Source: Thermococcus aggregans (lineage in GTDB: Archaea > Methanobacteriota_B > Thermococci > Thermococcales > Thermococcaceae). From it: a DNA stretch of 64,000 nt. Location of the stretch: the NCBI RefSeq assembly GCF_024022995.1, contig NZ_CP099582.1:1601054-1665053 (forward strand), read 5' to 3'. Under the pieces are notes generated by a model, which saw nothing but the letters and a program-made list of their open reading frames with translations, searched no databases and was not told the DNA's origin. Below, piece after piece: positions 11,230 through 13,492 of this stretch (position 1 is its first letter; every line of letters starts with the position of its first letter). Both the position numbers and the translations under genes were made by a program.

Positions 11230-11985
11230 CTAAAGCACGTTCAAATACTTGTGCACTTGGAAGCTCAAACCAACGTTGTCTCTTCCCATAACCTTCGCCG
11301 CGATGTTATAAAGCCTCATAAGCTGGGACTGGAAAATATCAATCGGTTCCTTGGGCTGTATGGCGAGAGGGGCTAAGCCCTTTAACAGCTCCGCATACCA
11401 CTTTACGTTTTCCTCTTTTGTATCTTTTGTAACCACGAGCTTTGCGTAAGTTTTCACCCCAGCTTTCTTGAGAATTCTAATGCTCTCCACTTCCTTGAGC
11501 ACCAGCTCCCTCCAGTTTTCAGTTGCACGGGCAGTCTCGTCTTTTATATCAACGCTTGCGTAGTCAACCAGCGGAGCAACCTCCTCAATGAGCTCTGGAA
11601 TTCCCCCGTGAGTTTCTAGGAAATTTGCAAAACCGAGTTCTTTCATCCTTTCCATAAGTGCTTTGAGCGATTTAACCTGAAGAGTAGGCTCGCCGCCAGT
11701 GTAGCTTATTGAGTGTATATCCCCTGTATCGAGCTTTAAAATGACATCAACAACTTCGTCAAGCTTTGCGGGGTTTGGTTTGTACTCAAATCTTCCCGTG
11801 AAGGGCTCCACTTCGTAGCGCCACTTCTTAACGCTTGGGGCAGAAATAAACGCCCTGGAATCACACCATATGCACCTCAGATCACAGCCAGCAAACCTAA
11901 CAAAAATCTGCCTTCTGCCAAATGCACTACCCTCTACGCTCCCGCCTTCCCCTTGCCAGCTGTTGAATATCTCTGCCAGAATCAT
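11230..11985 (-). CDS. queE: 7-carboxy-7-deazaguanine synthase QueE
   Basis: A radical SAM enzyme that converts carboxytetrahydropterin to 7-carboxy-7-deazaguanine, on the path to archaeosine in tRNA. The 251-residue protein has the N-terminal substrate motif FNSWQGEGGSVEG, the cluster-binding CDLRCIWC (CX3CX2C), and the SAM-binding TGGEPTLQ. It is the last gene of a minus-strand run with two small genes upstream (11994-12242 and 12254-12754), nine bases separating it from the first. Confidence 0.93.
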   Translation of the reverse strand: MILAEIFNSWQGEGGSVEGSAFGRRQIFVRFAGCDLRCIWCDSRAFISAPSVKKWRYEVEPFTGRFEYKPNPAKLDEVVDVILKLDTGDIHSISYTGGEPTLQVKSLKALMERMKELGFANFLETHGGIPELIEEVAPLVDYASVDIKDETARATENWRELVLKEVESIRILKKAGVKTYAKLVVTKDTKEENVKWYAELLKGLAPLAIQPKEPIDIFQSQLMRLYNIAAKVMGRDNVGLSFQVHKYLNVL

Positions 11986-12253: not shown

Positions 12254-12754
12254 CTAAACGTACTTCATCAAAAGGGAAACGGCTTCTTCTAAGATGTGTC
12301 TGTCTTCAGCATCTACAACATTCTCCAGATAGTAAAGACCTTTTATGTTAAGAATGATGTAAGCCTCATCTCTATCTAGGCCAAGGTCATAAGCTTCGTA
12401 ATAAACCCTTTCCTCTCCCAAAGCTTCGTTGAGCATTTTAACGAAATAGTTTATTTCATCCGTTGTTAAGTCGTCCCATCTGCTCTCCATCTCGTCAAAG
12501 TATCTCTCAAGAGTTCTTAATGTTTCTAAGTCTACTTTAAGCGTTCCCTCCACATAGGGGAACTCGCCGACCCTGAATATCTTTACACCGTCCTCGTCCC
12601 TCACACCAACGTAATCCCAAAGGAGAACTCCTTCTATGACACTGACCCCATATCTGCTTGCAAGGTAAGTAAACCTCTCCATAACCTCTTCAATATCCTC
12701 CAAAAACTCCTCTTCATTGGTGAACCTAACTACCTTACTTATTGTTCCAGCCAT
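12254..12754 (-). CDS. Hypothetical acidic protein, first gene of the queE operon
   Basis: A 166-residue acidic, mostly helical protein without signal or membrane segment. No family recognised. The ATG at 12754 is preceded by AAGGTGTGAG, and the palindromic TATA site at 12781-12805 lies about 30 bases further upstream. Being first in the run with queE, it probably shares its regulation. Confidence 0.72.
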   Translation of the reverse strand: MAGTISKVVRFTNEEEFLEDIEEVMERFTYLASRYGVSVIEGVLLWDYVGVRDEDGVKIFRVGEFPYVEGTLKVDLETLRTLERYFDEMESRWDDLTTDEINYFVKMLNEALGEERVYYEAYDLGLDRDEAYIILNIKGLYYLENVVDAEDRHILEEAVSLLMKYV

Positions 12755-12780
12755 ATCTCACACCTTGAAGGTTCATCACT

Positions 12781-12805
12781 CCCTAAGGGTTATAAGCCTT
12801 TAGGG
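12781..12805. promoter_or_regulatory. Near-palindromic TATA site between divergent units
   Basis: CCCTAAGGG, TTATAA and GCCTTTAGGG form an inverted repeat centred on the TATA hexamer. Because TTATAA reads the same on both strands, it is placed to start the minus-strand operon (ATG at 12754) and, on the plus strand, a transcript beginning near 12818 where a GC-rich hairpin starts. The flanking repeat could also be an operator for a dimeric regulator. Confidence 0.5.
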
Positions 12806-12816
12806 TTAACCTCAAT

Positions 12817-12896
12817 TGCCCGAGGAGTACTGGGTTGCGATGACCTCGGGACCCCCAGGGGGGCGACATCTCCAATGCCCCCCTACTAAAGTTTTT
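12817..12896 (+). ncRNA. Candidate GC-rich structured RNA (two strong hairpins)
   Basis: In an AT-rich intergenic setting, two perfect stems follow each other: CCCGAGG (12819-12825) with CCTCGGG (12844-12850), and GGGGGGC (12858-12864) with GCCCCCC (12877-12883). A TATA sequence centred near 12793 predicts a plus-strand start close to 12818, right at the first stem, and a T-rich stretch (GTTTTT) follows at 12891. GC-rich islands in hyperthermophile genomes are often non-coding RNA. It lacks box D, ACA or tRNA features. The strand is inferred; an operator or attenuator role is not excluded. Confidence 0.45.
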
Positions 12897-12931
12897 AAAA
12901 CTTTTGTTGCATTAATAACTGGGGGTTATTT

Positions 12932-13492
12932 ATGGTTATCATTCCCAAGCCAATTGATCCAAGAGAGATAAAGAAGCTTAGGAAAGAACTTGGCATAACT
13001 CAGGAGGAGCTTGCCAAAAAAGCTGGGGTTACGCAGGCGTATATAGCAAAGCTCGAAAGCGGCAAAGTTGATCCCAGACTGTCTACTTTCAACCGAATTC
13101 TCCAAGCTTTAGCTGAATGCAAAAAGGCCCGATTTAGAGCGAAGGAAATAATGTCTTCCCCCATAATAAGTGTCAAACCCTATGAAACGGTTGAGAAGGT
13201 TGTTAAGCTTATGAGTGAGCACAACATTTCTCAAGTGCCTGTGATAGCCGGCAATAAGGTAGTCGGCTCTGTAACGGAAAAAACACTCATTAGAAAGAGC
13301 TTTGAGTACGAGGATCTTCTCTCAAAAAAGGTTATGGAAATTATGGACGAGCCTTTCCCAATAATAAATGAGGACGAGAGCATTGAAGTCGTAAAGTTCC
13401 TTCTTGAAGAACATCCAGCAGTTATAGTACAGAACAAGGAAGGCAAGCCTGTTGGAATAATAACCCGTTCAGACCTGTTCAAAATAAAATAA
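12932..13492 (+). CDS. Transcriptional regulator: HTH (XRE-type) plus two CBS domains
   Basis: A 186-residue cytoplasmic protein. Residues 10-60 are a Cro/C1-type helix-turn-helix (IKKLRKELGITQEELAKKAG, then TQAYIAKLESGK). Residues 70-186 are a pair of CBS domains (AKEIMSSPIISVKPYETVEKV; KVMEIMDEPFPIINEDESIE), which in other proteins bind adenosyl ligands such as AMP, ATP or SAM. The combination suggests a nucleotide-sensing regulator. A TATA-like TTTTTAAAACT lies about 40 bases upstream. The target genes are unknown; the adjacent structured RNA and palindromic TATA site are candidates. Confidence 0.88.
   Translation: MVIIPKPIDPREIKKLRKELGITQEELAKKAGVTQAYIAKLESGKVDPRLSTFNRILQALAECKKARFRAKEIMSSPIISVKPYETVEKVVKLMSEHNISQVPVIAGNKVVGSVTEKTLIRKSFEYEDLLSKKVMEIMDEPFPIINEDESIEVVKFLLEEHPAVIVQNKEGKPVGIITRSDLFKIK

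Follow-up and report, generated by a model that had tools for sequence, protein, structure and literature searches.

A pair of GC hairpins in the genome of Thermococcus aggregans is almost certainly the orthologue of sRk28, a small RNA already published from two relatives, and hence does not represent a new type of RNA. The reading that we favour, with a probability of roughly 0.7, is that sRk28 is free-standing, is transcribed from a shared promoter and acts in trans, and is not the leader of a downstream gene. The window, that is, the whole stretch of DNA analysed, comprises 64,000 nucleotides of this archaeon.

Identity of the RNA and layout of its locus

The RNA lies in an intergenic gap of 177 bases (12755-12931) flanked by a minus-strand operon on one side and a plus-strand gene for a regulator with HTH and CBS domains (HTH-CBS) on the other (Table 1). 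The operon runs from an orphan gene encoding 166 amino acids (c0) through an 82-amino-acid gene (c1) to a queE-like gene, whose top NCBIfam matches are QueE models, every one under its cut-off. An earlier note, made from the letters of the window, had named the queE operon as one flank of the hairpins; the operon does adjoin them, although their immediate neighbour is the orphan c0 and queE stands third.

Table 1. Features of the sRk28 locus, in window coordinates
Feature	Positions	Strand	Remarks
Imperfect inverted repeat	12781..12805		TTATAA (12790-12795) between two BRE-like flanks; taken as a single TATA box for two divergent promoters
sRk28 small RNA gene	12817..12884	+	~68 nt in T. aggregans; covariance-model match 12818-12883, 96.4 bits
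Hairpin 1	12819..12850	+	Stem 12819-12825/12844-12850, 7/7 bp
Loop 1, near invariant	12826..12843	+	AGUA, then GGGUUGCGAUGA at 12832-12843; column counts, 75 sequences
Putative pseudoknot	12832..12854	+	GGGU 12832-12835 with ACCC 12851-12854
Hairpin 2	12858..12883	+	Stem 12858-12864/12877-12883; 8 bp with one additional A-T pair in one listing
AAAGTTTTTAAAA	12888..12900	+	Probable BRE/TATA of the HTH-CBS gene; holds the T-rich stretch 12891-12895
HTH-CBS regulator	12932..13492	+	Pfam HTH_3 + CBS; downstream neighbour, judged outside the RNA unit
c0, divergent 166-aa orphan gene	12254..12754	-	Heads the operon leading to queE; TATA box in common with sRk28
queE-like radical SAM gene	11230..11985	-	Third in the divergent operon; Pfam Radical_SAM

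Genome G004, which we take to be that of Pyrococcus abyssi GE5, matches the window gap by BLAST at 527719-527823 and the covariance model at 527730-527797 (86.6 bits), both on the minus strand. The P. abyssi sRk28 entry, in the available part of the published report, gives 527697-527833 on the minus strand, a 5' end at 527798 and sizes of 70/100 nt (PMC3124441), and the model match falls inside these coordinates. That 5' end is one base ahead of the conserved GCCCG(A) and corresponds by alignment to T12817 of the window. Because both the match coordinates and the 5' end agree with the entry, we identify the window RNA as sRk28.

According to the available parts of the two original reports, a species of ~70 nt was detected in P. 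abyssi (Phok et al. 2011, PMC3124441) and T. kodakarensis (Jager et al. 2014, PMC4247193), Northern and RNA-seq data exist for the orthologues in these two relatives, and the level of the RNA depends on growth phase in both. In T. kodakarensis it is an orphan, free-standing transcript (PMC4247193). The P. abyssi entry places sRk28 between PAB1992 and PAB1991 and gives its conservation as 'All except Tsi' (PMC3124441, available part). The 70-nt P. abyssi form would be exactly both hairpins and, given the same 5' end, the 100-nt form would end in a T-run just ahead of the PAB1992 start. In Pyrococcus (L098, and the same in other loci), a conserved CCGCCGGCGG palindrome and, after it, a T-run immediately precede the PP-loop start codon (ATG) and look like a terminator or operator.

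The window RNA resembles the published sRk28 in sequence and structure, but its context differs: it lies upstream of the HTH-CBS gene instead of adjoining PAB1992 and, unlike the published case, has a TATA box in common with the divergent c0-queE operon. Rfam 15 holds no sRk28 family, and we found no archaeal literature naming sRk28 beyond the two reports, judged by titles; the available part of the T. onnurineus transcriptome paper has nothing on it (PMC5316973).

With an E threshold of 10, a search of the neighbourhood and of the RNA alone against 4227 Rfam families returned no riboswitch or guide-family match; a CPEB3 match on the other strand (9.1 bits, against a gathering score of 35) was treated as chance. 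No tRNA or tmRNA was found by a dedicated search, and an H/ACA reading was set aside, as by eye no consistent ACA follows stem 2. Generic C/D and H/ACA box motifs were judged by eye. The earlier proposal of an unassigned RNA type gives way to sRk28.

Structure and covariation

Both 7-bp GC stems that had been described are present, with stem 1 pairing at 7/7 positions. The 116-nt segment folds with a z-score of -2.92, a value as low as which was reached by 1 of 200 shuffles, and the 68-nt RNA alone with a z-score of -1.13 (28 of 200). Folding energy alone is weak evidence; it is conservation that puts the RNA above chance, because 75 of 94 Thermococcales carry the core and compensatory changes occur in both stems.

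The 75 cores comprise 59 distinct sequences, on which the covariance model was built. Its alignment has 99.6% of cells paired, and an unfitted MAFFT alignment, with 98.0% paired, agrees with this structure-fitted one. Among the 59 distinct sequences, the stem 1 pair 12824-12845 is C-G in 43, G-C in 14 and U-A in 2, and the stem 2 pair 12863-12878 is G-C in 32, C-G in 25, another combination in 1 and a gap in 1; both stems thus covary, at one pair each, and the check across Thermococcales that the earlier note had put forward comes out in favour of an RNA. The covariation score is attained by none of 500 shuffles, and sliding the register gives nothing close to it, in an alignment that was itself fitted to the structure. 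A tree of c0, for which the RNA was not used, covers 65 of the 75 loci (2 of them lacking a stem 2 label) and has many poorly supported branches; on it, the covarying pairs changed at least 6 times in stem 1 and at least 11 times in stem 2. The G-U exchanges are compatible with the plus strand only. Exceptions in stem 1 are L092 and L104, which break the last pair, and L096, which breaks the first; L104 also lacks 2 bases of stem 2.

Over the 75 sequences, 42 of 66 positions are invariant, and the near-invariant loops read AGUA, GGGUUGCGAUGA, ACCCCCA and GACA. GGGU and ACCC are able to pair in 59/59 distinct sequences. A pseudoknot between them is plausible rather than proven, because the G-U exchanges seen in 3 sequences are one-sided and there is no double-sided change. 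When single sequences were folded at 85 °C, 8 of 9 favoured a hairpin using the same GGGU and ACCC; as this alternative would compete for both elements, the models make a two-state RNA possible.

A TATA box probably shared by two transcription units

The inverted repeat reported around TTATAA is real: its arms, at 12781-12789 and 12797-12805, differ by one mismatch, and it is unique in the window, where shuffling yields an expectation of 0 at up to 3 mismatches. The claim of a structured small RNA with a TATA box at the expected start distance also stands, the box lying ~26 nt before the 5' end; nearly all loci outside Pyrococcus have it 27 to 30 bases ahead of the conserved G. The P. abyssi TATA-like box ahead of sRk28 is weak in our analysis, and the available part of the Phok et al. 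report gives no promoter for it (PMC3124441).

TTATAA occurs in 39 of 39 loci in which a divergent c0 starts no more than 80 nt from the RNA, with AA upstream and TTT downstream symmetrically conserved. Where a divergent c0 lies farther off, it is found in 3 of 25 loci, the rest having a non-palindromic T-rich box or TTATTA, and it is found in 1 of the remaining 11, of which 10 have no c0 in the stretch and 1 has a c0 that is not divergent. The association of TTATAA with c0 distance gives a Fisher p of 3e-14 with kinship ignored; independent contrasts on the tree all run in one direction, 4 of them on well-supported branches (p 0.125). This split between near and far loci, the concordant contrasts and the existence of a precedent argue that TTATAA is very probably one TATA box common to sRk28 and the divergent c0-c1-queE operon.

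The precedent is the BRE-TATA-BRE bidirectional promoter of P. furiosus, for which the available part of the source describes two starts ~50 bp apart (PMC6640164). The window box is alike in its nearly symmetric TATA, flanked on each side by BRE-like A/T tracts, and its predicted starts, at 12817/12818 for the RNA and near 12766 for the operon, would similarly be ~51 bp apart. The P. furiosus motif, as that part of the source presents it, was investigated for the antisense transcripts to which it gives rise (PMC6640164), whereas the motif in the window appears to serve two conserved genes. With a TATA box common to both, the RNA and the c0-c1-queE operon would be co-expressed. On comparison of the loci, the palindrome is most likely a shared TATA box and not an operator, and a regulator-binding role, though conceivable, is not needed.

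The T-rich stretch that the earlier note had placed after the stems is likewise present, but it looks like the TATA element of the HTH-CBS gene. We read it so because a TATA-like box of that gene survives in three loci whose RNA is decayed or gone (L107, L109 and L111).

Distribution, neighbours and mode of action

We searched 115 genomes of the phylum, 94 Thermococcales and 21 others, with the covariance model of the core (12818-12883). Intact sRk28, at 74 to 98 bits and always in single copy, is present in 75 of the 94 Thermococcales; 3 more have degenerate copies (G079, 36.5 bits; G053, 26.3; G084, 25.7), 16 have no match, and none of the 21 other genomes has one. BLAST of the gap against the 94 genomes finds the core at other loci, with all six genera represented. 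An exact 25-base pattern was found in 14 genome contigs, all Thermococcales, in a scan that seems not to include isolate genomes, and in 0 viral contigs. In many genomes of genus g4 (L044, L050-L065 and others), the RNA has just 3' of it a hairpin element from a small interchangeable set, for example AAACTTCG..CGAAGTTTGA or AGCCCTTGC..GCAAGCGCTGG; the set may be a family of dispersed repeats or of terminators.

The failing copies show several kinds of decay: pairing is disrupted in G079 and G084, 15 internal bases are deleted in G053, and the copy in G060 is decayed and runs off the end of the stretch examined. Inspection by eye showed TTATAA kept at c0 with no RNA after it in G047, G051, G055 and G056, TTATAA kept with an RNA remnant only in G075, and no RNA at that place in G078, G083 and G003. 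Six genomes of the genus of T. aggregans lack intact sRk28 (G075, G078, G079, G082, G083 and G084). Because it has decayed or vanished in several lineages, sRk28 is, from these comparisons, dispensable and is missing from more than one lineage, although draft assemblies may in places simply lack the sequence. As c0 is kept where the RNA is gone, c0 is independent of it. This gene occurs in 87 of the 94 Thermococcales and in 0 of the 21 other genomes, and belongs to no Pfam or NCBIfam family; its AlphaFold model is confident (pLDDT 93.8), with no clear relative in the PDB and no clear structural match (best Foldseek E 0.07, VIA-align Z 5.9).

The genes downstream of sRk28 are varied. Across the 75 loci, the first same-strand gene is L37Ae-like in 25, topoisomerase I in 13, family c24 in 10, a PP-loop ATPase of the PAB1992 family in 8, HTH-CBS in 7, c94 in 3, c161 in 2 and one of six others once each, with none in the stretch in 1; these counts are ORF-based, size-filtered and approximate, and the labels L37Ae-like and topoisomerase I come from reading the sequences, not from family searches. 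The seven HTH-CBS neighbours are all in the genus of T. aggregans, while matches to the regulator itself with E below 1e-79 occur in 90 of 94 genomes, some of which lack the RNA; this speaks against the suggestion that sRk28 is an RNA partner of this regulator. The CBS-domain frame matched by the HTH-CBS query contains one in-frame TAG in G074, G077 and G081 (same genus) and in G029, where the alignment may reach past the true start.

The PAB1992-family neighbours are those of all 8 Pyrococcus loci, in which the RNA lies just ahead on the same strand. We read 12 upstream regions of PP-loop genes by eye. Where the gene stands without the RNA in Thermococcus, most have a T-rich TATA-like box ~30 bases ahead of the start, as in Pyrococcus, and most of the loci read have a leaderless-looking start; L141 and L148 are unclear for the box and L146 is different. 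Co-occurrence of PAB1992 with sRk28 was considered and is unsupported: at E 1e-30, genomes that have the RNA and no PAB1992 include G001, G050, G057 and G093, and those with PAB1992 and no intact RNA include G047, G055, G056 and G060. At the same threshold, the six genomes of one genus listed above lack a PAB1992-type PP-loop gene as well as intact sRk28.

Phok et al., in the available part of their report, likened sRk28 to the preQ1 riboswitch and proposed that it derives from a leader (PMC3124441). It does resemble the bacterial preQ1 riboswitches in its small hairpin, putative pseudoknot and nearby deazaguanine gene, and the invariant loops, the dependence on growth phase in two species, the PP-loop gene behind every Pyrococcus copy and the divergent queE operon in other genera could all be accommodated by a leader whose pseudoknot binds preQ1 or preQ0 and controls the gene downstream. 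We nevertheless consider such a cis riboswitch unlikely. Downstream genes vary among loci, queE is on the opposite strand in the window, no Rfam riboswitch model matches, and the transcript is free-standing; nor does sRk28 sit in the leader of a same-strand deazaguanine gene, as HTH-CBS is downstream and queE divergent. PAB1992 matches the QueC family PF06508 weakly and scores 29.4 bits against an NCBIfam QueC cut-off of 150, and its relatives in most Thermococcus loci read have a similar TATA box without the RNA. We found no literature on a preQ0 or preQ1 riboswitch in archaea or Thermococcus. A cis switch fits poorly because downstream genes differ and have their own promoters where inspected; the ligand switch for the neighbouring gene envisaged in the earlier note thus finds little footing in cis, with at least six downstream families and, for the two contexts inspected, a separate promoter ahead of the downstream gene.

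Ligand sensing might instead operate in trans, through an aptamer without an expression platform that is co-expressed with the queE operon and feeds back on deazaguanine synthesis. The promoter in common with that operon, the rigid fold with its many invariant positions and the free-standing T. kodakarensis transcript suit this idea, which is doubtful all the same, since the RNA persists unlinked from the operon and has been lost where c0 stays. That a riboswitch-like aptamer acting in trans is wired to the archaeosine precursor pathway via the TATA box shared with queE likewise strikes us as rather improbable. Far less credible is the notion that there is no RNA of its own here, only a regulator-bound DNA palindrome beside incidental GC hairpins: the palindrome is genuine and unique in the window, and the folding energy of the 68-nt segment is unexceptional, but compensatory changes in both stems, invariant loops and the published transcripts of orthologues all oppose it.

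We return to a free-standing sRk28 that probably acts in trans, an argument resting on the differing downstream genes, the PP-loop promoter that exists without the RNA and the orphan transcript of T. kodakarensis. By sequence comparison the molecule is a compact, single-copy RNA of ~68 nt with two GC hairpins, near-invariant loops and a possible pseudoknot, and it would present the invariant loops to a protein or RNA partner. On the other side, conserved loops would suit an aptamer as well as contact with a protein or target, and sRk28 precedes the same gene in 8/8 Pyrococcus loci, in keeping with the leader origin proposed in the available part of the Phok et al. report. No conserved target was found by the two approaches used: the sole perfect antisense copy of the invariant 12-mer in the T. 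aggregans genome is the sRk28 gene itself, and complementarity between the loops and 16S or 23S rRNA (two rRNA loci including flanks) did not rise above shuffles.

An apparently new RNA has thus been reassigned to a family that is published yet unexplained. For this family the comparisons provide an alignment and a covariance model spanning the order, evidence of covariation, a promoter architecture, and a survey of genomic contexts and natural losses. Because the RNA has been lost in places and its context varies, the riboswitch suggestion becomes testable, and both observations count against its cis form. As sRk28 is dispensable, it should be possible to delete it in T. kodakarensis.
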